DNA of 64,000 bases from Bacteroidia bacterium (GTDB lineage Bacteria > Bacteroidota > Bacteroidia > Chitinophagales > JAUHXS01), in the NCBI GenBank assembly GCA_030426955.1, contig JAUHXS010000007.1:124001-188000 (forward strand), given 5' to 3'. The notes below the pieces were generated by a model that was not told the DNA's origin, made no database searches, and worked only from the letters and a program-made list of their open reading frames with translations. A program made the translations under genes and the position numbers. Numbering within the stretch: the first letter of the stretch is position 1; the number at the start of each line of letters is the position of its first letter. This document shows, piece after piece, positions 4,416 to 64,000 of this stretch.

Positions 4416-7400
4416 ATGAATATGCGATATAACAATATGATAGTTCGATCTTTTTTACTTGTACTGTTTAGTGCTGTATGTTTTCAATGGGGCATTGCTA
4501 AGGAAAACTTAGGGCAAACTAAGTTGAAAAAGGAGCAGACTTATAAGGCTTTAACAGATTGTAACGAAGCTACATCTGACATTGATTTAGATATAAATAA
4601 TGTCAGAACAAGGTTGCTAGGCGGTGGCGATTTTTGGTGGGACTTATCAGTTGCCAGATATGAGGTGCCCAGAATACCAGATAATAGCGATCAACCTTCA
4701 GTAAGTTCGCTTTTTGCAGGTGCGGTTTGGATTGGAGGATTTGATGAAAATAATCAGCTAAAAGTAGCAGCTCAAACCTACAGGCAATCTGGAAGCGACT
4801 TTTGGCCAGGACCATTAGATGAAAATGGAAGTATTAATCAAGCGGTTTGCGATGAGTATGATCGTCACTGGAAAGTAGAAGGAAGTGATATTAGTGAATT
4901 TATCCAGGCCTATGAAAATGGTAACATAGCTAGTGAAGATAATGTACCAGCCTCTATCAGAGAGTGGCCAGGAAGGGATAATCCTTGGTTAACGGATATT
5001 ACATTACCTGTTGGAAGAGATTTTGCACCTTTTTTTGACAATAACCAAGATGGGATATACAATCCTGTTGATGGAGATTATCCAACCTTAGATACTTCAT
5101 CCGCAGCAAATGCTGAAGAAGGTGTATATGCTGATCAAATGATTTGGTGGATATATAATGATCGGGGTAATTTACATTCAGAATCTGGAGGGGTAGCAAT
5201 CGGTATAGAAGTTCATGCGCTTGCATTTGCTTTTAAAACAAACGATGAGCGAAATAATATGACTTTCTATCGCTACCGTTTGATCAATAAAGCTACTTCC
5301 GAGTTGGATAGCACTTTTATGGGGATTTGGGTAGATGCTGACCTTGGAGGGGCCTATGATGATTATGTTGGATGTGATACGTCAAGAAATTTAGGTATTT
5401 GCTATAATGGTAGAGCATTTGATGCTGATTTTGGTTCTTCAAGAGGATACGGAGATAATCCTCCAATAATTGGGGTAGACTATTTTCAAGGTCCAATTGT
5501 CAAAGATACTACTTCAACAGGAGCGGATACTTCAATTGAGTTAGGGATGTCCTCATTTTTGTTTTATAATAATGATTTTACGATCACTGGCAACCCTACT
5601 TTAGCGACTAGTTATTATGGGTACATGGCTGGAACATGGCAAGATGGTTCTCCATTTTTATTCAGAGGAAATGGTCACTCAGGAGGTGGGGGAATTACTA
5701 GTCAGCCCTCTAATTTTATGTTTCCGAGTGACCCGACAGATCAAAGTAGTACTGCTTGGTCAGAATGTAACATAGATGGAAGCGGTACCCAGAGTACACC
5801 TGCAGATAGAAGGTTTTTACAATCTTCTGGACCATTTGTTTTAGAGCCAGGAGCAGTTAATGATATAATAGTCGGTGTTGCATGGGTAAGGCCTACTGGC
5901 GTATATCCGTGTCCTCCTTTTAGTAGTATTCAAGCTGCGTCAGACAAGGCACAAGTACTTTTTGACAGTAACTTTGAAATTGTAGATGGCCCAGATGCCC
6001 CTAATATGTCCATCCGTGAGTTAAATAAAGAGCTCATTATTTCGCTCTGGAACGATGAAAACTCTAATAATATGGGAGGGCAGTATAATGAAGTAGATGC
6101 TACTATTACAGCAGGGATTTTAGCTGCAAATGATGTTGAAGACCAGAATTATAACCCTTTAGACACATCATATAAGTTTCAGGGGTACATCGTTTATCAG
6201 CTTAAAAACTCTACCGTAACATCTGTAGACTTTGGTAATCCAGACTTAGCAAGGGTAATTGGACAAGTAGATGTTAAAGATGATATAGCTTCCATGATTA
6301 ACTATAATTTTGATCCTGAAGTCGGTGTTGAAACCCCAACTTTAGAAGTTAGTGGTAATAATGAAGGAATCACGCATACATTTAAAATTACAACAGATGC
6401 TTTTGCCGAAGGGGAGTCACAATTAATTAATTATAAAAAATATTACTTCAGTGTTATTGCTTATGCTTCTAACAATTATTTGCCTTATGACCCTTCGAGA
6501 AGGGATACCAACGATGTTGTTGTCACTGGGCAAACCTTACCATTTCTTGCTGGTAGACAAAATATTAGACAGTATACAGCCATTCCTCATGATGTTTTAT
6601 CTGAAAATGATGGTACCAAACTCAACGCTAGCTATGGAGATGGGCCAGAAATAACCTTAATGGATGGTATTGGTAACGGTGGAAATTTATTAGAATTTAC
6701 GGCAGCAACAGAAAGTCAATTGCTACAGTTTGGAGCAGTAAATACACCTACTTATACAGGTACAAAAGGCCCTGTAAAAGTAACTATTTTTGACCCACTC
6801 AAGCTACCAGCAGACAACTTTAAAATTGTTTTTGATGACACAACAACAGGAAGTAGGTTGGATAGTGGAGCAACATGGCATTTGGAGCGGGAGAGTACTG
6901 GGGAAGTTTATAATGCCGCTAATACGATTGGTGTAGGGGGGGAAGAGATTTTCATAGACTTAGGGTTGAGTGTAGAGATAAAGCAGGTTTTGCCTCCAGG
7001 CTTTTTAGTAAACCCAGTAGATAGGAATACGATAGATGTATCTCCAAACAATGGTTTTATTTCCGATGATGATGCGGTAGAGCCGTTTTGGTTAAATAGT
7101 CTTCCCGACCAAGATGTAGTAGCGCCAAATCCATCACAAGGTTTTCAAAACTGGATTCGGTCTGGAACATTTACACAAGCAGCTGCTACGGGAGAGTATA
7201 ACCCAAGTGATATATCTTATTATAACAGTAGCGACTCGTCTAGAGCATATTTAGATCCTGAAGAAATTTATGAAAATGTTGTTGAGGGTACGTGGGCTCC
7301 TTTTGTATTGGCTTCACAATATGAGCATGGTCCAGGTCTTACAACAATGCTGGGGGTATATGCCCTATCAGGTACAAATGCTAATAGGCTCGACAGTCTA

Positions 7401-8426
7401 CATAGCGTTATGTTAGTCTTTACTCCTGATAAGTCTAAATGGTCTAGATGTCCTGTTGTTGAAACTGGCGATAATCAAAATATTAATGAAGGGCAAGGGG
7501 TAAAGCTGGGTATAAGGCAGCATGCTGGTTTGAACTTAGATGGTACCTACAGTTCGGATGATCCTAGTGATGATAATTATGGAATGGGCTGGTTTCCTGG
7601 TTATGCGATGGATTTGGAAACAGGTAATCGGCTAAATGTAATGTATGGGGAGAGTTCTTGGTTAGTAGGAGATAATGGTCGAGATATGATTTGGAACCCT
7701 ACTAGTAGATTTACAACTAGTCTTGGTGAGATTAAGCTAGGTGGAAAGCATTATATCTACATCATGAGAACACCATATGATAGAGGAGAGGAGATTAGAG
7801 AGTATTTAGAAAGTGGAGGAACACAAGACAAAAATAGGGTTTATAAGCAGGCCATGTGGACGTCTGTTCCAGTAGCGACATCAGAACTTGTAAGCTTTAG
7901 CCACGGTATAGTTCCTGAAGAATCTCGAATAAGAATCGGTGTAAATAAATCATATAAACGTAATGTGATTACTGGAGATAACAATGGTCTTCCCTTGTAT
8001 TCTTTTTCTACACATAGTTTAGCACCAACATTTAATTATTCTGATACCTTTTCAACGATATTAGATGAAATTAATATAGTGCCTAATCCGTACTATAGCT
8101 TTTCTAAATATGAAGAAAGTCAATTGGACAATAGAGTGAAAATAACAAACTTGCCAGGGGAATGTACCATATCTATATTTACGGTTGATGGTTCATTGGT
8201 TAGGAAGTTTAACAGAGATGATGCAACTGTTGATAAAAGCTTAGTGGATGATACGAATGTTGATGTTTTGAGAAACCCTAATGGTCAAGATTGGGATTTA
8301 AAAAACTATGCGGGTGTTCCTGTAGCTAGTGGGGTGTATATTATACATATTGATGCTCCAGGAATTGGAGAACGAACATTAAAATGGATGGGCATTATGA
8401 GGCCAACCGATTTGGATTCATTCTAG
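4416..8426 (+). CDS. Giant secreted protein with T9SS C-terminal domain, partner of receptor and PorV-like barrel
   Basis: About 1,336 residues. A signal peptide (hydrophobic stretch near SFLLVLFSAVCFQWGIA) precedes a long extracellular part with repeated Asp/Asn/Gly-rich turns (DNNQDGIYNPVDGDYP is calcium-loop-like). The C-terminus is of the FlgD/T9SS sorting type: IVPNPYYSFSKYEESQ, then IFTVDGSLVRKF, then YAGVPVASGVYIIHI, then ERTLKWMGIMRP. No catalytic domain was recognised. ATG choices are 4398 (overlapping the receptor stop by 14 nt), 4416, 4422 and 4437; 4416 avoids overlap and has an A-rich upstream stretch, typical of this phylum. It is followed 20 nt later by the PorV-like gene. The set suggests a surface protein exported with the help of its own barrel partner and working with the receptor; this is inference. 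Confidence 0.8.
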   Translation: MNMRYNNMIVRSFLLVLFSAVCFQWGIAKENLGQTKLKKEQTYKALTDCNEATSDIDLDINNVRTRLLGGGDFWWDLSVARYEVPRIPDNSDQPSVSSLFAGAVWIGGFDENNQLKVAAQTYRQSGSDFWPGPLDENGSINQAVCDEYDRHWKVEGSDISEFIQAYENGNIASEDNVPASIREWPGRDNPWLTDITLPVGRDFAPFFDNNQDGIYNPVDGDYPTLDTSSAANAEEGVYADQMIWWIYNDRGNLHSESGGVAIGIEVHALAFAFKTNDERNNMTFYRYRLINKATSELDSTFMGIWVDADLGGAYDDYVGCDTSRNLGICYNGRAFDADFGSSRGYGDNPPIIGVDYFQGPIVKDTTSTGADTSIELGMSSFLFYNNDFTITGNPTLATSYYGYMAGTWQDGSPFLFRGNGHSGGGGITSQPSNFMFPSDPTDQSSTAWSECNIDGSGTQSTPADRRFLQSSGPFVLEPGAVNDIIVGVAWVRPTGVYPCPPFSSIQAASDKAQVLFDSNFEIVDGPDAPNMSIRELNKELIISLWNDENSNNMGGQYNEVDATITAGILAANDVEDQNYNPLDTSYKFQGYIVYQLKNSTVTSVDFGNPDLARVIGQVDVKDDIASMINYNFDPEVGVETPTLEVSGNNEGITHTFKITTDAFAEGESQLINYKKYYFSVIAYASNNYLPYDPSRRDTNDVVVTGQTLPFLAGRQNIRQYTAIPHDVLSENDGTKLNASYGDGPEITLMDGIGNGGNLLEFTAATESQLLQFGAVNTPTYTGTKGPVKVTIFDPLKLPADNFKIVFDDTTTGSRLDSGATWHLERESTGEVYNAANTIGVGGEEIFIDLGLSVEIKQVLPPGFLVNPVDRNTIDVSPNNGFISDDDAVEPFWLNSLPDQDVVAPNPSQGFQNWIRSGTFTQAAATGEYNPSDISYYNSSDSSRAYLDPEEIYENVVEGTWAPFVLASQYEHGPGLTTMLGVYALSGTNANRLDSLHSVMLVFTPDKSKWSRCPVVETGDNQNINEGQGVKLGIRQHAGLNLDGTYSSDDPSDDNYGMGWFPGYAMDLETGNRLNVMYGESSWLVGDNGRDMIWNPTSRFTTSLGEIKLGGKHYIYIMRTPYDRGEEIREYLESGGTQDKNRVYKQAMWTSVPVATSELVSFSHGIVPEESRIRIGVNKSYKRNVITGDNNGLPLYSFSTHSLAPTFNYSDTFSTILDEINIVPNPYYSFSKYEESQLDNRVKITNLPGECTISIFTVDGSLVRKFNRDDATVDKSLVDDTNVDVLRNPNGQDWDLKNYAGVPVASGVYIIHIDAPGIGERTLKWMGIMRPTDLDSF

Positions 8427-8446
8427 AACAAAACGAATAGGGATAG

Positions 8447-9502
8447 ATGAAAAAAATAATACATATAGTGGCAGTATTGACTCTGGTAATAGGAGTATAC
8501 AATGTAAGAGCTGGAAACAAAGATAGGCAAGGTCAAGCAGGTGCAGGACACTTATTGATTAACCCCTGGGCCAGAAGTACTGGGTTGAATGGGTTGAATA
8601 CAGCTAATATTGAGGGAGTTGAGTCTATGAGATTGAATGTTGCTGGCTTGTCTAGTATAGGGAAAACGGAAGCTATTTTTTCTCAGAATATCTACTTTCA
8701 AGGAGCTGGAATTTCAATTAGTACATTTGGTATAGGTCAAAAAGTTGGTGCTGCAGGTGCATTAGGACTTTCTATTATGTCCATGAATATGGGAGATATA
8801 GAGGTAACCACTAATGATAATCCAGATGGAGGCTTAGGTACATTTAGCCCATCTTATACTAATATTGGTATTTCTTATTCTAAATTATTTTCAAATAGTA
8901 TTTCTGGAGGTTTTACGTTTAGAATTGTTTCGGAGTCTATTACAGATGCTAGTGCATTAGGAGTAGCCTTAGATGGTGGATTTCAGTATGTGACAGGTCC
9001 AAAAGAAAATATTCACTTTGGACTATCTATTAGGAATGTCGGTACGCCAATGACTTATAGGGGAGCTGGTCTTACATTCCGAGGAGAACCTGATCTAGAT
9101 CCTGATAAAAGCTATCAACAAACTCTAGTGCAGCCTACAAACTCTTTTGAGTTGCCTTCTTTGTTGAATATTGGCTTAGCATATGATATGATTAAAGACA
9201 GTTCAAATCACCGATTTACATTAGTTGCTAATTTTACTTCTAATGCTTTTGGTCGCGATCACTTAGGATTGGGTGGAGAGTTTGCTTTGAAGGAAAAATT
9301 TATGTTTAGAGTTGGCTATAAATATGAAGAAGGCATCTTCAACAAATCGGAAAGAACAACTATAATGACCGGATTGGCAGGAGGTATTACTTTTCAGCTA
9401 CCCATTGGAGAAAGTAATCTTCTAGCTTTAGACTATTCATATAGGACAACATTCCCATACAATGGGATACATAATATAGGTCTGCGGTTCAATATCCAGT
9501 AA
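8447..9502 (+). CDS. PorV/PorQ-family outer-membrane beta-barrel protein
   Basis: A 351-residue protein with signal peptide (MKKIIHIVAVLTLVIGVYNVRA), then the family's start pattern (GAGHLLINPWARSTGLNGLNTA, VESMRLNVAGLSSIGKTE), then alternating strands to a terminal GLRFNIQ. PorV is the T9SS outer-membrane shuttle that takes cargo from the translocon to the attachment complex; many Bacteroidota carry several paralogues beside particular cargo genes. Being third behind a receptor and a giant CTD-bearing protein, it is more likely a dedicated partner than the core porV; the core T9SS genes are not in this window. A strong terminator follows 21 nt after the stop. Confidence 0.8.
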   Translation: MKKIIHIVAVLTLVIGVYNVRAGNKDRQGQAGAGHLLINPWARSTGLNGLNTANIEGVESMRLNVAGLSSIGKTEAIFSQNIYFQGAGISISTFGIGQKVGAAGALGLSIMSMNMGDIEVTTNDNPDGGLGTFSPSYTNIGISYSKLFSNSISGGFTFRIVSESITDASALGVALDGGFQYVTGPKENIHFGLSIRNVGTPMTYRGAGLTFRGEPDLDPDKSYQQTLVQPTNSFELPSLLNIGLAYDMIKDSSNHRFTLVANFTSNAFGRDHLGLGGEFALKEKFMFRVGYKYEEGIFNKSERTTIMTGLAGGITFQLPIGESNLLALDYSYRTTFPYNGIHNIGLRFNIQ

Positions 9503-9523
9503 GAATTTATTAAATTCGTATTG

Positions 9524-9560
9524 AGAAACGTGCCTCTCTTTTTGAGGCACGTTTCTTTTT
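9524..9560 (+). terminator. Rho-independent terminator of the receptor/PorV operon
   Basis: A perfect 13-bp stem (9524-9536 with 9544-9556), a 7-nt T-rich loop and a run of T at 9556-9560. It lies 21 nt after the PorV-like stop and 20 nt before greA. It separates the secretion module from the housekeeping genes. Confidence 0.9.
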
Positions 9561-9580
9561 CGTTAAAATAAACCATAGAA

Positions 9581-10054
9581 ATGGCAGAGTATACTTATTT
9601 GACAAAAGAAGGATTAGACACACTTAATGAAGAGTTAAAAGAACTAAAAACCAAGGGAAGAGCAGATATGGCAAAACAAATTCAAGAGGCTCGTGAAAAA
9701 GGAGACTTGTCTGAAAATGCGGAATATGATGCAGCTAAAGAGGCTCAAGGACTTTTAGAGAAGAAGATTGCTGAGATGGAAGCCAAAGTTTCTAATGCCA
9801 AGGTAATTGACAAATCTAAGCTAGATGCTTCTAAAGTAATGTTACTTTCTTTTGTTGAAATAAAGAATACCCAAAACGGAAGTACAATAAAGTATCAAAT
9901 TGTGCCAGAACCTGAAGCGGATCTAAAAGCAAAAAAAATATCCGTTGCTTCTCCCATTGGTAAAGGCCTACTTGGTAAAAAGGTTGGGGACGTTGCTGAA
10001 ATAAATGTGCCTAACGGAACATTGAAATTTGAAGTGGTTGAGATTAGCCTCTAG
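9581..10054 (+). CDS. greA: Transcription elongation factor GreA
   Basis: 157 residues, the normal length. The N-terminal coiled coil (1-75) carries the tip motif GDLSENAEYDAAKE (41-54), whose Asp42 and Glu45 match the acidic residues that stimulate transcript cleavage inside RNA polymerase. The C-terminal FKBP-like domain contains SPIGKGLLGKKVGDV. GreA enters the polymerase secondary channel and rescues backtracked complexes. The ATG at 9581 sits just after the strong terminator, so it needs its own promoter. It ends 2 nt before the HIT gene, with which it is almost certainly co-transcribed, a common pair in Bacteroidota. Confidence 0.97.
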   Translation: MAEYTYLTKEGLDTLNEELKELKTKGRADMAKQIQEAREKGDLSENAEYDAAKEAQGLLEKKIAEMEAKVSNAKVIDKSKLDASKVMLLSFVEIKNTQNGSTIKYQIVPEPEADLKAKKISVASPIGKGLLGKKVGDVAEINVPNGTLKFEVVEISL

Positions 10055-56320: not shown

Positions 56321-58546
56321 TTATTTTTCGAGTAGTTTATACAATCTTTCCATTGCTTCTTGATTCTTTTCCGAGTTAATGGCATTGATGATGTTGTTTT
56401 TCTCCCTAGTAGTTAAGTGCCAGTTTAGAGAGACTTCTTGCGCGGTGGTTTGAGGTATGTATTCGAATCTTACAATATCTACAGGATGATCTGTCCAGGT
56501 GGAAATATAAGTTATTAGATTATCATGGTAATAGTCTTGAAATTCACTCCAATTGGTATAAAAATTTCCAATAGGGTTAAATAGTTTATCTGTGATACTA
56601 GATCGTTTTTTACCTTTTATATCTTTGGTTTTTGGTGTATCTCTTATTTGTAAAATGATGATTCCACTCGTGTTTTCTTCAATCCACTTTCTAAAGACAT
56701 GTATAAATCGTGTGGTTGTTTCTAATCCAAAGTTATCTCTCATGCCTGCATCCATCACTTTCATAACAGGTTCTGAGGGTAAAGATATTGGTGGTGTAAT
56801 ATAGGGAAAGGACGCATTCATTCTTAGTGCTGTAATATAGTTGAGGTTATGAGATTGTTGATCTTTGAAGAATGTCATAAAATCTATAGCATCTGTCTCA
56901 ACAGAGTTGTTTGGATTATCAGAAATTGGATGTGTTAAGTAAGAGATGGGCTGTGCTGCCATATAAAGTCTCTGACCATTGTTTACAATAGTTGCATTTA
57001 AAATAGCCATAGGTATCGTGGCCTTTTGTTCAACAATGCTGTAGTCCAACAAATTTTTGTTCATGACGTGGTTTGTATTTTCATTAATCATTTCTTCAAA
57101 CATATATCCCCGATCTTTTGAATAAGAGGCGCCATTATATTCGAATTTTTGCCAAGGAATAAAAAAGTCATTCACAATAAAAGTGAAACAAATTGGATTT
57201 AAAATGTCTTTAGACATATTTTGAATATACTGTTTGTCGATACAATTAGCAATGTCTCCCTGTTTCTGCCTAAGAAACAATTCTCTGTAGTAAGAGGCGC
57301 CAATCATACCTGCTGAAGCACCACTTATTAAAACAGTCTGTTCAAGTAATTTTTGATCTAGAACTTGATCTGCATTTTGTAATACATTGAGTGTCCAGTT
57401 AGCAGCTCTCAGCCCGCCACCACTGGTATTGATAAAACAGATTTTAGGTTTATTATTACCCATAGCTACCATCTTAGATTTCCATTTTTCTAAGATCGAA
57501 AGAGTATGACTAATGTCTTTGTCAATGATTGTGGGAGGACTTTCTTTGCTCAGTTGCGCTCTCGTATAAGTTTTTACTTCGCTATCATAATTAATGCCTT
57601 TAGCCTGACTAATATAATTGAATAAATTATAATGAATCATAGCATTGATTAGCATGAAAACTGCCACAAACCCTATTGTTTTCCACCCTCTCATCCAGAA
57701 GCTGAAAGCACCTAAGAGCATAATTAAGATAGAGAAAAGCAATAATAGGCTAGCCCCTGCAGGAATTCTAAAAAGTTTATAATCCATTAAGAAACTGAAG
57801 GAAAAAAGCATTAGCATGGCTATTCCCCCAATAAGCACTGCGTTGATATGATGTTGCCTGAAAACGACTCTTAGCATAGAGCTGTCGTAATGAGATACTT
57901 TTCTTACTCGCCTGGTAGACAAAAGCCCCGAAAGAAAAAAGTCTACACGCCAAAGTTTTTCCAAGTTGTCAGGCTCTTCTAATTCTGTAGGTTTATCAGG
58001 CTTTTCAAAGTCTTCCTTATTAAGACCAAAAATCTTGTAGATATCCTTGTTTGTATTAAAAAAATAGATCAAAGAAAAGGTAACCATAATGACAGCCCCC
58101 AGTAAAAATGCACTTAACTCTGAGATGATTTTAATATTGAGTTGGTATTCAACATTAGATTGAAATCCGATGACCATGGCAAAGTAAGTCCCTAAAAAAC
58201 TTAGTGGTAATAAAGAGTTATTTAAGCAGTACTTAGTAAAAGGATATTCTAGCGTAGCTAAAAATGGAAAACGAAAACTGTTTAAGATATAGTGGGTTAC
58301 ATTCCATGTCATAACAAAACCACCGAATGCCAGACCAATAAGAAGAAAGCTCAACATATTAACTTTCCCTAGGTATTCAGGGTCGAGAAATAGGTATGGG
58401 ATTCCAAACTTAAGCCCGAAACTTTTAGTGATAATTAAAAAAAGTATGGCCCAAAAAACGAGTAGTAGCTGATGTTTTTTTAGGTGTACAAGCAACAGCT
58501 GAATTGGAAAAGAAAAGTATATATTTTTTAAAGTTTGCCTCAACAA
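56321..58546 (-). CDS. Patatin-like phospholipase with N-terminal multi-span membrane domain
   Basis: 741 residues. Roughly eight hydrophobic segments in residues 20-330 form a membrane domain. The C-terminal half is a patatin fold: oxyanion loop SGGGLRAA (about 370-377), nucleophile GASAG (about 400-404) and catalytic Asp in MDAGMRDNFG (about 592-601). Such enzymes release fatty acids from membrane lipids. The start is TTG at 58546 with a stop one codon upstream. The fusion of a multi-span domain to the patatin half is unusual compared with soluble patatins. Confidence 0.85.
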   Translation of the reverse strand: MLRQTLKNIYFSFPIQLLLVHLKKHQLLLVFWAILFLIITKSFGLKFGIPYLFLDPEYLGKVNMLSFLLIGLAFGGFVMTWNVTHYILNSFRFPFLATLEYPFTKYCLNNSLLPLSFLGTYFAMVIGFQSNVEYQLNIKIISELSAFLLGAVIMVTFSLIYFFNTNKDIYKIFGLNKEDFEKPDKPTELEEPDNLEKLWRVDFFLSGLLSTRRVRKVSHYDSSMLRVVFRQHHINAVLIGGIAMLMLFSFSFLMDYKLFRIPAGASLLLLFSILIMLLGAFSFWMRGWKTIGFVAVFMLINAMIHYNLFNYISQAKGINYDSEVKTYTRAQLSKESPPTIIDKDISHTLSILEKWKSKMVAMGNNKPKICFINTSGGGLRAANWTLNVLQNADQVLDQKLLEQTVLISGASAGMIGASYYRELFLRQKQGDIANCIDKQYIQNMSKDILNPICFTFIVNDFFIPWQKFEYNGASYSKDRGYMFEEMINENTNHVMNKNLLDYSIVEQKATIPMAILNATIVNNGQRLYMAAQPISYLTHPISDNPNNSVETDAIDFMTFFKDQQSHNLNYITALRMNASFPYITPPISLPSEPVMKVMDAGMRDNFGLETTTRFIHVFRKWIEENTSGIIILQIRDTPKTKDIKGKKRSSITDKLFNPIGNFYTNWSEFQDYYHDNLITYISTWTDHPVDIVRFEYIPQTTAQEVSLNWHLTTREKNNIINAINSEKNQEAMERLYKLLEK

Positions 58547-58645
58547 TTAATGCTTAATTTGGGTTTATAGTATTTGTACGTAAAAGTACTGTATTTGTTG
58601 TGTTTTAAAATCAGAAACTGGAGTAAAAAATATTAAATTTTCTTT

Positions 58646-58676
58646 GGGGGTATTTTAAAAGTTTTTCGTCTATAAT
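58646..58676 (+). promoter_or_regulatory. Predicted ECF-sigma-type promoter
   Basis: GGGGGTATTTT (58646-58656), 10 nt, then CGTCTATAAT starting at 58667. CGTC is the common -10 core of ECF promoters, and the GGGTATTTT block has the look of boxes seen upstream of FecI-type genes in Bacteroidota. It would start a transcript that carries the 55-codon gene, the sigma factor and fecR, giving autoregulation. Confidence 0.45.
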
Positions 58677-58773
58677 ATTAAGGGGTTTACACCTCGTATG
58701 AATAACTCCTTATAAGTAAGATTAAATAAGGATATAATTAATTCATTATCAATAATAATATGTAAAGATATTT

Positions 58774-58941
58774 ATGGAAAAACTTGATTATAAGAAATAC
58801 TGCCACCAGATGATAACATTATTAGAAGAGATCTATGATGGGTTGGAAGATGCTAAGAAATCGAGAAAACTAAGCCTATTTGAAGCATCTATTGCACAGT
58901 CCATAATCAAAACTCTATCTAGCCCACCCAAAATTGATTAG
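58774..58941 (+). CDS. Small 55-residue protein of the sigma-factor operon
   Basis: ATG at 58774, TAG at 58939-58941. MEKLDYKKYCHQMITLLEEI and the following residues predict two amphipathic helices (4-30, 34-48) with a polar tail ending SSPPKID; no signal peptide. Codon use looks like that of neighbouring genes. It lies about 100 nt after the predicted ECF promoter and 20 nt before the sigma gene, so it is likely the first gene of the operon. It may bind the sigma or anti-sigma factor; no family recognised. Confidence 0.6.
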   Translation: MEKLDYKKYCHQMITLLEEIYDGLEDAKKSRKLSLFEASIAQSIIKTLSSPPKID

Positions 58942-58961
58942 CTATCTTCGTTGCATAAGTT

Positions 58962-59519
58962 ATGGGTATAGAAAATCAATTTGAGAATATATACAAAGAT
59001 AATTATAGCGATCTATGCAATACTGCTTTTCAGATTGTATATGATGAAAAGGCTGCAGAGGATATTGTTCAGGAGGTTTTCTTGAAAATATGGAATAGAA
59101 AAAATGAAATACAACTTCATTCTTCTATGAAAGGATATTTGATAAGGTCGGTAATCAACAAATCCATTGACTACTTAAGGACACATAAGAGCTTGTCTGT
59201 GAAAAGAGGTGTTGATTTATCCTTGATCCGTGAAACTGAAAACGCTGATAGAAATATTAATTTTCGTGAGTTGCAAGAAATCATTTATGATGCAATCGGA
59301 AAGCTTCCTCCGAAATGTAAAGCTGTTTTTGTTTTGTGCCGTTTTGAAAAAATGAGGTACAAAGAAATTTCAGAGCATATGGATATTTCAGTAAAGACAG
59401 TAGAAAATCAGATGAATATTGCTTTGAAAAAATTGCAAGGAGAGTTGCCTCAAGATCTAAGACAATATAATATTGAAACGTTGCTCTGGGTATTAACCTT
59501 ATGTGATTTTATTAATTAA
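58962..59519 (+). CDS. ECF (FecI-type) RNA polymerase sigma factor
   Basis: 185 residues. Region 2 has YSDLCNTAFQIVYDEKAAED followed by IVQEVFLKIW, which melts and reads the -10 box. Region 4 has LPPKCKAVFVLCRFEKMRY and KEISEHMDISVKTVENQM, the helix-turn-helix for the -35 box. There is no extra C-terminal domain. It would be held inactive by the FecR protein encoded 28 nt downstream. Its predicted targets include its own operon. Confidence 0.93.
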   Translation: MGIENQFENIYKDNYSDLCNTAFQIVYDEKAAEDIVQEVFLKIWNRKNEIQLHSSMKGYLIRSVINKSIDYLRTHKSLSVKRGVDLSLIRETENADRNINFRELQEIIYDAIGKLPPKCKAVFVLCRFEKMRYKEISEHMDISVKTVENQMNIALKKLQGELPQDLRQYNIETLLWVLTLCDFIN

Positions 59520-59547
59520 TGTTAGATGTTATTTAATACATTAAGAT

Positions 59548-60360
59548 ATGAGTATAAATAGTCAGCAAATTATTAAATATCTATCTGGCAGTTGCTCAGA
59601 AGAGGAGTGCTTGGCAATCGAGCAATTTAAAAAAGAGTCTTCAAACAATAAATTGATTTATGAAAAGGTAGAGAAATTTTGGAATCAAATAGGTCAATAT
59701 AAAAGAGAATTTCGTCCAGATGCTGAAGTAGCTTGGCATCATTTTAGAAAAAAACTAAAGCATAACAAACGTTTTACTGCAATCATATTTAAAATTGCTG
59801 CATCATTGGTGCTACTAATTGCAAGTGTTTACTTTGTAAGGATTTACTTAAGTTCTGAAAATCTAGAAATAGAGAAAGAGATCAAATTTGATAATGTGCT
59901 GACTGCTGAAGGGGAAATTTTGGAGCACCTTTTTTCTGATAGTTCTTTGGTGGCAGTAAATAAAGGAAGTAGTATAAAATACAACGACTTTACATCCGAC
60001 TCTGTAAGAATCATAAAGCTAACAGGAGAAGCCTTCTTTAAAGTAAATGCTTCAAAAAAAGACTTCATAGTTGAAGCAAGTGAGATAAACATAAGGGTGA
60101 AAGGGACTTCTTTTAACGTAAATGCCTATGATGATCAATCTAATTTAGAGGTAAGTGTTTATGAAGGAATCGTAGAAGTAAGTGAAAAGAATAACTTAGG
60201 AAATAAAATAGTGCTTACAAAGGGAGAAAAGTGTAAGTATTCGATTGAAAACCATTCCTTCAAGAAGAAAAAGTTTAGAATTGGAAAAACTTGGTTTGGA
60301 AAACTATTTAAAAAGTTTTCAAATTTCTTTAAGCGATTGAACAAAAGTAACTCTAAATAG
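59548..60360 (+). CDS. FecR-family anti-sigma factor
   Basis: 270 residues. The cytoplasmic part (1-78) starts with the usual MSINSQQIIKYLSGSCSEEE. One membrane span lies at about 80-100 (IIFKIAASLVLLIASVYFV). The periplasmic FecR domain follows (LTGEAFFKVNASKKDFIVEA, VRVKG-like IRVKGTSFNVNAY). The C-terminus has an uncommon basic tail (KKFSNFFKRLNKSNSK). FecR proteins relay signals from outer-membrane receptors, but no SusC-type receptor follows; the next gene encodes a secreted T9SS protein. Confidence 0.9.
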   Translation: MSINSQQIIKYLSGSCSEEECLAIEQFKKESSNNKLIYEKVEKFWNQIGQYKREFRPDAEVAWHHFRKKLKHNKRFTAIIFKIAASLVLLIASVYFVRIYLSSENLEIEKEIKFDNVLTAEGEILEHLFSDSSLVAVNKGSSIKYNDFTSDSVRIIKLTGEAFFKVNASKKDFIVEASEINIRVKGTSFNVNAYDDQSNLEVSVYEGIVEVSEKNNLGNKIVLTKGEKCKYSIENHSFKKKKFRIGKTWFGKLFKKFSNFFKRLNKSNSK

Positions 60361-60446
60361 AGATTGCTGTCTATTGATTGGCAGTCAATTTATTGTACAT
60401 TATATATAGAGAGATTATTTATATATTTACTATTCTAATAAATAAG

Positions 60447-62327
60447 ATGATTAGATTTAGTAATAGATTAATTATTACATTAATAACAGTTATTAAAATT
60501 CTTACAGCTTCTGGGCAAGAGTCTTTATGGAATCACCTTGAATGCCCTTGGACAAGTGAAAGTAAATTATTTGATGTGGAGTTTGTGGATAGCTTGAATG
60601 GCTATGTTGCAGTTGATACAATTTTGTATAAGACCACCAATGGTGGGTGCAGTTGGACAAAGGTACTGAGTCATCATGGCCTTTTGCTGGATATTTGTTT
60701 TATTAATGACTCTGTAGGGTATGTGCTTACCGTAAACAATTTTTATTTTAAAACCAGAAATTATGGATATAGTTGGGAAATAAAGTGTTGTATCGACTCT
60801 GAAAATTCCTCAACGGTGCCATTATCTTTTCATTTTGCAGATGAGAGGGTAGGGTATGTGTTCAGAAACCCTGGTGAGATACAATATACTGCAGATAGCG
60901 GAAATACTTGGGAGACTGTATTTCATGGACTTCATATTTACAAGAAAATGTCATTTCCAAGTAAGAATAAAGGCTATATGGTTGGCAATGGTGGACAAAT
61001 TCTCCTTATAGATTCTAATACAGTACTCTCAGGCCTTATTGGTAATCAATACTTTGATAATAAATCTGTTTCATTTATCAACGACTCGGTGGGCTATATG
61101 GTAACAGAGTATTTAGATACTAACTATATCTTAAAAACTGTAAATGGTGGGTACGAATGGCAAGTAATATATACGAATGATAGTATAATTGATATAATGG
61201 ATATAGAATTTCTGGATAATGAGGCTTATTTTCTAGGTTTTTTAGAAGGAAGCGGTGTCAGTATGTTTCGGTCTACAGATAGCGGTACTTCCTGGCAGGA
61301 GGACTATATCTCTTGGCCATATAGTTTAGAGTTTATAAAAATAAGTAAAGACAAAATAGTACTAACTGGTGGAGATCTCGGGTTGCTTTATGTTCGAGAT
61401 AAAAAACCTGCTATTGACCCTGTTGCATTCCCTAAAAATATTTTAATATGTCCTGACTCATTTATCAATCTTGATGCAGGCTCACATTCAGGCAGTTCCA
61501 TTCTTTGGTCGACAGGAGACACTTCACAAAGTATTTCAGTGAATATGAATGGATCGTATTCGGTAGATATTACCAATGATTATTGCACAAAAAAGTTCAC
61601 TACTGACATTAGTTATTATAATGCATTGGCCAAAATAATTGGTGATAAGTTTATATGTGATGAAGGTGTAACGCTGTCCTTTGATAACAATCATCATAAC
61701 AATTGGTATGTAAACGACATCTATAAAGGTAGTGCTGATACTATTCTGATTTCTGGCTCTGCTATTGTTATTTTAGAATCAATTGAAGGGGAATGTGTGT
61801 TTGACTATGACACGGTTTCTGTAATACATTTGCCAAACGATAGTATTCCAATTATCACATTAGTAGATAGCAATATGCTCAAATCAAGTTATAAAAAAGG
61901 AAATCAATGGTACTATGAAGACTCAATATTAGTCGGGGAAAATGACGAAACCCTTTTCTTGGAGGAGTACGGGGAGTACCACGTTAAGGTATCAAGAAGT
62001 TCTTCATGCGATATTTATTCCAATAAATATGGATATTATGCTTTTTCAATTTCTCAAGGAGTTTTGTTACATGATTTTTCCTCCTTTCCCAATCCCTATG
62101 AAGAGCATACAAATATTGAATATATAATAAATCATAAAGCAGAAATATCATTGGAATTGTTTAGTGTTTTAGGAGAAAAATTGTTGACGTTAGATCAGGG
62201 GGTTAAGTTCCCCAATAACTATTCATACTCTTTTAGCGCAAAGCGAGAAGGCTTTTCATCAGGGGTATATTTTCTAAAACTCACCGTTGATGGCAATGTT
62301 TATACTCAAAAATTATTAGAGCTATAA
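60447..62327 (+). CDS. Secreted YCF48/BNR-like propeller protein with T9SS type A sorting domain
   Basis: 626 residues. Signal peptide 1-23 (ends LTASGQ). Residues 25-330 contain YCF48-like repeats (TTNGGCSWTK, RNYGYSWEI, ADSGNTWETV, VNGGYEWQV, TDSGTSWQE), as in the cargo protein at 17767. An Ig-like part (335-540) includes LWSTGDTSQSI. The sorting domain reads SSFPNPYEEHTNIEYI, LFSVLGEKLL, SSGVYFLKLTV, ending KLLEL. The ATG at 60447 begins a proper signal peptide; an upstream start at 60378 would add a poor 23-residue lead. It lies 86 nt after fecR and may share its control. Confidence 0.84.
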   Translation: MIRFSNRLIITLITVIKILTASGQESLWNHLECPWTSESKLFDVEFVDSLNGYVAVDTILYKTTNGGCSWTKVLSHHGLLLDICFINDSVGYVLTVNNFYFKTRNYGYSWEIKCCIDSENSSTVPLSFHFADERVGYVFRNPGEIQYTADSGNTWETVFHGLHIYKKMSFPSKNKGYMVGNGGQILLIDSNTVLSGLIGNQYFDNKSVSFINDSVGYMVTEYLDTNYILKTVNGGYEWQVIYTNDSIIDIMDIEFLDNEAYFLGFLEGSGVSMFRSTDSGTSWQEDYISWPYSLEFIKISKDKIVLTGGDLGLLYVRDKKPAIDPVAFPKNILICPDSFINLDAGSHSGSSILWSTGDTSQSISVNMNGSYSVDITNDYCTKKFTTDISYYNALAKIIGDKFICDEGVTLSFDNNHHNNWYVNDIYKGSADTILISGSAIVILESIEGECVFDYDTVSVIHLPNDSIPIITLVDSNMLKSSYKKGNQWYYEDSILVGENDETLFLEEYGEYHVKVSRSSSCDIYSNKYGYYAFSISQGVLLHDFSSFPNPYEEHTNIEYIINHKAEISLELFSVLGEKLLTLDQGVKFPNNYSYSFSAKREGFSSGVYFLKLTVDGNVYTQKLLEL

Positions 62328-62332
62328 AAAAC

Positions 62333-64000
62333 CTACCTTTGAAGTATTAATTTTTGATTGATTTGTTTTCCGTCAAGGTTTAGAGATAAGATATAGATGC
62401 CATCATCTAGGTGAGACAAGTTTATCTCCTCTTCGTGTTTCCATTGTGCTTCTCTATTACTTTTGCTATAAACGGTTTGACCTGTTAAAGATTTTACTTC
62501 AACTTCTAGTGAATTTACTTTGGCTGTATGCCCTGCTATATTTAGGCGGTAGATACCACTACTCGGATTGGGAAGAATGCTAACCACAGTAGACAGTTTC
62601 TTGCCTAAGTTATTAGGACTGGTTGAGTCAATGAAAGATACACCATTACTGTCTACTATCACGATGACGTAGATTTGTTGTATTTCTTCTGTTATTTCTA
62701 GATCAAAGCCAGCATCTACAGGTATGCCAGCTACATCAACATAAAGGTTATAGGTAACATCAGAAACTATTTCATCAAAAGAAAAGATGGCACTATCTTG
62801 AAGGATAGGATCATATTCGGTTACATCAAAAGCAATAGGTTTGCTGGTAGATTTATCAATTAGAGATACATCTAGACCATTAAGAGGGTCACCAGGTCCT
62901 GTCACTTTCCCTCCTGAGAAGTTTCCTTCTACTGTTTTACCAAAAATCTTTCCCGTACCCTGTACCGCTGGAGGACTAAGATTAATACAAGTTATGTCCG
63001 CATCTGTTAAGTTGGCTGTAACATCAATTACAGTTGCTGAATCCCAAAAGAAAGCATCAGGATAATACGTTTTTAAAGTATTAGGAAATAATAACGGAGC
63101 AGGGTTTGCGTGTAAGATAATCTTTTCATTTTCAGCTATGGCGGGGATACTATAACTCCCGTTTGAGCTAATGGCAACACTACTCAGAAACTTAAACTGG
63201 CCATTTTGCTTTTTCAATACTCTCACAGCACCTGCCGTTACGACACTATCTTGAACACCATTGTAAACCGTGCCGCTGATACTAAAGCCAAGTATTACCC
63301 TTACCGAGTCGGTATTTTGATTTCCACAACCATCCGTTACGGTACAAAAATATTTCATAGAAGAACTAGGAAGTGCTTTTGTGCTCATGCAGGTGTCACA
63401 TGCAAGTCCAATGCTTGGTGTCCAATTGTATGAAATGGCACTAGGAGCAGAAGCGGTAAGGAAAACGCTATCGGAATGGTTGGTTACAATATTGCTTCCT
63501 AAATCAACTAAAGGAACTCCGCCAAGATCAAACTCATCTGCACCGATGTCTGGATTCGACACGTTTCTAGTGTCTCCATCAATATCTAATAACACTCCTG
63601 ATACTGGAATTCCTTTACTATCTAAAGCTATGTTGCAAAGGTGAAGGTTGTCATCACTTAAAAAGGTTGGATCTATGGAAATAGAATTTGAATCAAATTG
63701 AGTAGAATCTTGCCATTCCGAAAGGTCTGCGATAGCAGAATCATTCCAAACGCCTAATACGCTTCCCGTCGTGTAGAGGTCATTGTAATCCATCGTTGTG
63801 ATATCTGCAGCAGCATCTATTTTTACTGCGATACCCCCCGATTGATTAGAAAATATATTGTTCAATATATTTCCATCTCTAGTAAGTCTAAATGAGATCG
63901 CTTCAGAAAGAGGAGAAGCATCTGTTATATTGATGCTATTAAAGTAAAAATTAAAATGATCACTATGGTCGTCATATAACCCTAGTTCCGAATTAGCCAT
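62333..64000 (-). CDS. Secreted beta-helix protein with T9SS type A sorting domain, 5' end outside window
   Basis: At least 555 residues; the frame is open to the window edge, and the Met at the last codon is probably internal. The visible N-terminal part has right-handed beta-helix features (NILNNIFSNQSGGIAVKID, MDYNDLYTTG) and the closing phrase NPDIGADEF common after such helices. An Ig-like domain with IGLACDTCMSTKALP follows, then carboxypeptidase-regulatory-like modules (ISGTVYNGVQDSV). The type A domain ends the protein: ILPNPSSGIYRLNI, VKSLTGQTVYS, LDDGIYILSL, ending KLILQR. Convergent with the previous gene, 5 nt between stops. Confidence 0.83.
   Translation of the reverse strand: MANSELGLYDDHSDHFNFYFNSINITDASPLSEAISFRLTRDGNILNNIFSNQSGGIAVKIDAAADITTMDYNDLYTTGSVLGVWNDSAIADLSEWQDSTQFDSNSISIDPTFLSDDNLHLCNIALDSKGIPVSGVLLDIDGDTRNVSNPDIGADEFDLGGVPLVDLGSNIVTNHSDSVFLTASAPSAISYNWTPSIGLACDTCMSTKALPSSSMKYFCTVTDGCGNQNTDSVRVILGFSISGTVYNGVQDSVVTAGAVRVLKKQNGQFKFLSSVAISSNGSYSIPAIAENEKIILHANPAPLLFPNTLKTYYPDAFFWDSATVIDVTANLTDADITCINLSPPAVQGTGKIFGKTVEGNFSGGKVTGPGDPLNGLDVSLIDKSTSKPIAFDVTEYDPILQDSAIFSFDEIVSDVTYNLYVDVAGIPVDAGFDLEITEEIQQIYVIVIVDSNGVSFIDSTSPNNLGKKLSTVVSILPNPSSGIYRLNIAGHTAKVNSLEVEVKSLTGQTVYSKSNREAQWKHEEEINLSHLDDGIYILSLNLDGKQINQKLILQR

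Follow-up and report, generated by a model that had tools for sequence, protein, structure and literature searches.

A FecI/FecR-type sigma and anti-sigma locus with a truncated FecR and no detected STN-domain receptor in a Bacteroidia genome

The 64,000-nt stretch of DNA analysed here (the window) covers positions 124,001 to 188,000 of contig JAUHXS010000007.1 in the Bacteroidia bacterium assembly GCA_030426955.1, a genome of 3.41 Mb in 23 contigs that is ~97% complete. Between 58.6 and 62.4 kb its plus strand carries, in this order, a promoter-like site, a 55-codon open reading frame (ORF), a gene for a sigma factor of the extracytoplasmic function (ECF) type, the anti-sigma gene fecR, and a gene for a protein with a tail of the type IX secretion system (T9SS). 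A preliminary description of the DNA had named these five elements, and every one is present. The four reading frames are intact and have a coding composition typical of the genome. The sigma gene (58962-59519) belongs to the FecI-like Bacteroidota subfamily, scoring 161 bits with TIGR02985 (cut-off 126.4), and is the sole above-cut-off match to this model in the genome. Two related sigma genes of another genome (117-119 bits; loci L181 and L193 of G687) have no FecR adjoining them within the fetched stretch.

The FecR-type anti-sigma factor is encoded directly downstream (59548-60360), matches PF04773 with an E-value of 1.4e-16, and is the only PF04773 match in the genome. Its length is 270 residues, in comparison with ~310-390 in the best-matching relatives. 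The N-terminal anti-sigma region, the membrane helix, and the FecR (CJM) domain with its GT motif are all retained. According to an alignment with 12 relatives, however, the protein breaks off early in the STN-like C-terminal module, of which it has only the first strand and helix. PF16344, which represents this module, has no match in the window FecR at E<=1, and neither does a hidden Markov model (HMM) of the module built here, whereas PF16344 matches the FecRs of both relatives that were scanned. A frameshift as the cause of the short protein was considered and rejected, since the 86 nt before the next gene are too little for the remainder of the module. In a structure model of FecR, the mean predicted local distance difference test (pLDDT) value is 66, with the FecR domain mostly >70. 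The predicted fold matches the Parabacteroides anti-sigma factor BDI_1681 and PupR over ~130 of 213 residues, a length that corresponds to the PupR CJM subdomain.

A survey of relatives, those searched first including none from the window's own family, supports the rarity of this truncation. The first survey comprised 132 ORFs of 250-450 residues that match the FecR HMM, with 15 shorter or longer matches set aside. The STN-like module was found in 130 of them, the exceptions being the window FecR and a single ORF (L101_12), a weak match that is not the FecR of its locus; all 130 other distinct FecR ORFs thus carry the module. Many of the surveyed sequences had gone into the module HMM itself, and 20 loci fetched later serve as a separate check: there, the module is present in 20/20 main FecRs. 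One of these (from genome G632) is also only 271 residues long, but its start is missing and its end is kept. A literature search limited to titles and abstract openings, with few subscription journals, returned no description of a FecR lacking the C-terminal module.

As for the receptor that usually accompanies such a pair, no gene with an STN domain adjoins the sigma and fecR genes. PF07660, the STN domain model, has no match at E<=0.1 anywhere in this ~97% complete genome, the PF16344 search having covered only part of it, while control genomes gave PF07660 matches in the same search. The preliminary description held that a T9SS cargo protein takes the place of the usual SusC-type receptor. 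The part of this claim that stands is that no receptor adjoins the pair; as a substitution it is incomplete, as the part of FecR that would contact a receptor is gone too.

The putative promoter reads GGGGGTATTTT-N10-CGTC (58646-58670) and contains the core GGGGTA-N14-CGTC. The exact match is unique in the genome, with 1 further site at 2 mismatches. The core pattern GGGGTA-N14-YGTY was looked for in the regions upstream of 127 related sigma genes and found in 6, against a shuffle mean of 0.055 and with 0 of 200 shuffle sets reaching 6; the gap of 14 had already been suggested by a noisy count of dyads in these regions, in which GGGT stood out together with TGTC at 15 nt. Gaps of 10-13 and 15-18 give only 0 or 1 matches among the 127 relatives. 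In 5 of the 6 motif-bearing relatives the motif lies 40-77 nt ahead of the sigma start, and 2 further sites occur among the 20 loci fetched later. An unguided 8-mer count over 98 of the upstream regions ranks TAGGGGTA first. A weight matrix refined from the relatives' promoters proved overfitted, giving the window site a score at chance level (p 0.65); it was dropped and replaced by the plain pattern test and the unguided k-mer count. Judged by its sequence, the promoter is of a type that also precedes some of the related sigma genes. Long inverted repeats (ACAAGGTAC.../...GTACCTTGT), a possible terminator or operator, were seen by eye ~60 nt ahead of the sigma start at two other loci (L198 and L210).

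Regarding other targets of the sigma factor, GGGGTA-N14-YGTC occurs at 3 sites genome-wide, in comparison with 6 for a reversed control. The two sites other than the window's both lie within ORFs, and a second intergenic site for this close motif was found nowhere in the genome. A wider regulon sharing the promoter motif was therefore rejected as far as close matches are concerned.

The 55-codon ORF (58774-58941) stops 20 nt ahead of the sigma ATG. With a frame-aware composition score of 0.037, it ranks at the 48th percentile among 306 real 55-codon fragments; of 120 spurious ORFs, 2 score as high, and all five alternative frames of the ORF are negative. It is on this coding composition that the small hidden gene proposed earlier is now judged probable. 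No Pfam, PADLOC, or PHROGs family matches the 55-residue protein, and the one NCBIfam match is sub-threshold (E 0.16). A search of 396 genomes of the order, the window genome among them, gave no convincing relative; the best candidates (E 0.003 and 0.009) were rejected, both lying within longer open frames (268 and 849 codons, respectively). A phmmer search of the ORFs of the fetched loci likewise returned nothing beyond the window itself. A single-sequence model predicts two helices with a mean pLDDT of 76, and neither a significant fold nor a significant sequence match was found in the PDB. The small gene is probably real and lineage-restricted.

These features could also belong to a decaying circuit, in which the receptor gene and the end of fecR have been lost and the remaining pair is constitutive or silent and heading for loss. 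The truncated FecR, the undetected STN partner, and the small gene without relatives would fit such a course, as would a lower fraction of guanine and cytosine at 58-62 kb (0.31-0.33 vs ~0.36). However, the four intact frames of typical composition and the well-formed promoter speak against it, and decay is considered unlikely. As a separate observation, the fraction of 0.31-0.33 is seen at window positions 58001-62000, with ~0.36 elsewhere in the window, and could hint at a later arrival of this region.

The last gene of the row (60447-62327) encodes a 626-residue protein with BNR/YCF48-like repeats (PF14870) and an N-terminal signal-like segment judged by eye. Its T9SS type A tail is recognised as a C-terminal sorting domain by TIGR04183 (38.1 bits, over the cut-off of 23), and PF18962 scores just below its own cut-off (26.8 against 27 bits). 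This gene is on the same strand as fecR and separated from it by 86 nt, a gap that holds a hairpin directly behind the fecR stop (60361-60393; −11.4 kcal/mol, z −2.53, with 3 of 200 shuffles as stable). The hairpin is a possible weak terminator or attenuator. The terminator-like site inside it (60366-60385) is 1 found against 1.5 expected, the T run behind it is poor, and Rfam gave no match. No promoter of either type was recognised in the gap, although the scan recovers the −7 element from no more than 6 of 23 upstream regions. The preliminary description took the cargo protein as an apparent target of the sigma/anti-sigma operon. The shared strand, the short gap, and the gap's lack of a recognised promoter make co-transcription plausible; with a hairpin in between, membership in the operon stays uncertain.

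To see which genes usually follow fecR, the next gene was recorded for 131 distinct FecRs, the window's included. It encodes at least 700 residues in 76 cases, 480-699 in 32, and fewer in 8, lies on the opposite strand in 12, and falls past the end of the locus in 1. Five third-gene proteins of 554-686 residues were checked; all have CarbopepD_reg_2, and four also have STN. A T9SS-tailed gene follows the window FecR and just 1 of the 130 others, so that a conserved sigma-fecR-T9SS layout was not found. The lone other case (locus L170, positions 5288-10033, on contig C27 of G717) has a sigma gene, a complete FecR, and a 979-residue T9SS-tailed subtilase on one strand. In the genome under study, T9SS tails were found on 8 of the 71 ORFs of at least 100 residues in the window and two further stretches (L111 and L112), one of them weakly. 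Given how seldom a T9SS gene follows FecR and how common T9SS tails are in this genome, the adjacency of the cargo gene carries little weight.

These counts bear on a simpler explanation, namely that the T9SS gene is a chance neighbour with a promoter of its own, while the circuit consists of the small gene, sigma, and fecR, and its transcript ends at the hairpin. The stability of the hairpin, the abundance of T9SS tails, and the single parallel among other FecRs favour this arrangement; the common strand, the 86-nt gap in which no promoter was recognised (with the low yield of the scan given above), and the poor T run do not. It is regarded as a serious possibility that nevertheless falls short of being probable.

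Two T9SS-tailed proteins were recorded beside this one. A protein of 1956 residues (contig C19 of this genome, G000, positions 136687-142557; L111 9688-15558) is 56% identical to the cargo tail over its last 84 residues, with the next-best tail in the genome at 26%. A convergent gene for a T9SS-tailed protein of 1391 residues occupies window positions 62333-64000 and beyond (L110 6334-10509), its stop 5 nt from the cargo stop.

The preliminary description further suggested that the circuit responds to or controls protein secretion by the T9SS, in the manner of SigP in Porphyromonas. The cargo gene downstream agrees with this idea, and parallels have been reported. Thus, the P. gingivalis PorXY-SigP system (PMC4800418, PMC7712824) also links an ECF sigma factor to T9SS-tailed proteins, one of which, PorA, feeds PorXY-SigP signalling (PMC7712824). 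Similarly, the phosphate-responsive PUSIII cluster of Flavobacterium johnsoniae (PMC8115612) brings together a sigma factor, FecR, a receptor, and proteins with T9SS domains. However, SigP is under the two-component control of PorXY (PMC4800418), its promoter targets are those of the T9SS machinery, and the available text of these two papers mentions no FecR. The PUSIII cluster, in turn, retains a TonB-dependent receptor and a FecR bearing pf16344, according to the available text; PF16344 also matches a receptor in a table of that paper. In the window genome, the motif gave fewer sites than its control, the close motif marks no other intergenic site, and the adjacency of the cargo is compatible with chance. 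Secretion control has parallels (PMC7712824, PMC4800418, PMC8115612), but the evidence from the window does not single it out; the claim is not supported, and this reading is held to be very improbable.

In comparison with the studied FecI/FecR/FecA, PupI/PupR/PupB, and FoxI/FoxR/FoxA systems, the locus likewise pairs an ECF sigma gene with a downstream gene for a membrane anti-sigma factor that has a CJM domain and GT motif, and it too has a self-contained promoter. It differs from the FecI/FecR/FecA type in that the STN-like module of FecR is cut short, no receptor gene adjoins, and no STN domain was detected in the genome; in addition, the locus opens with an extra small gene. Of the features that define the FecI/FecR type, the FecI-like sigma factor and the adjacent FecR anti-sigma factor were found, and the PF16344 module and the STN receptor were not. 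The order of sigma gene, fecR, and a third gene for a secreted or membrane protein is shared with Bacteroidota operons of the fetched relatives in which the third gene encodes an outer-membrane protein with STN and CarbopepD_reg_2, and some of these also have the promoter GGGGTA-N14-YGTY. In contrast to them, the third gene of the window encodes a T9SS-tailed, beta-propeller-like protein without STN, and the window FecR is truncated.

The reading considered most probable is that of a FecI/FecR cell-surface-signalling circuit whose receptor arm has been lost and whose main target is its own operon. It is based on the one sigma/FecR pair, a FecR stopping in the receptor-contacting module, the absence of a detected PF07660 match, and the type of the promoter, all of which are features of sequence. 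On the model of FecR and FoxR in other systems (PMC8144685, PMC11637429), FecR would tether the sigma factor to the membrane in such a circuit, and a cut in the periplasmic CJM domain of FecR, where the GT self-cleavage motif is retained, would set the sigma factor free. The freed sigma factor would then transcribe its own operon from 58646, amounting to positive autoregulation. The 55-residue protein may act as an accessory regulator, and the T9SS-tailed protein would be the only evident output beyond the regulators, reached by read-through past the hairpin. With neither the STN-like end nor a detected STN partner, the circuit would have to receive its signal at the CJM domain or via proteases; the trigger would be periplasmic proteolysis or a factor acting directly on the CJM domain, rather than a TonB-dependent receptor.

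Several results weigh against this lost-receptor reading. PF07660 is an imperfect probe: among the third genes of five relatives it scored 1 over the cut-off and 3 below it and missed 1 (E<=0.01). The incompleteness of the genome and the partial coverage of the PF16344 search also count against it. Regarding the promoter, the motif is missing in 121 of 127 relatives, the sigma factors whose genes have it do not cluster with the window sigma, and the refined matrix failed on the window site. Finally, the cargo is assigned as output by its position, which the hairpin opposes. A more elaborate possibility, in which the CJM domain of the receptor-less FecR senses the T9SS-secreted propeller-like protein (e.g. 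when stuck in the periplasm) and the 55-residue protein tunes the sigma and anti-sigma pair, is regarded as distinctly unlikely; if true, it would make the locus a self-contained secretion-feedback switch with the receptor swapped for new parts.

Overall, the locus is a real, unusual reduced version of a well-known kind of signalling, with the truncated FecR as its chief new point. In the studied systems, the CJM and STN-like parts of a FecR-type anti-sigma factor jointly contact the receptor, and PupR is reported to bind its transducer only with both together (PMC7186176). A natural FecR without the STN-like part would allow a direct test of whether signal sensing is possible with nothing more than the CJM domain and GT self-cleavage. 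If the link to the cargo gene is true, the loop would include a secreted protein. The locus also illustrates a way in which a circuit of this kind could outlive its receptor.

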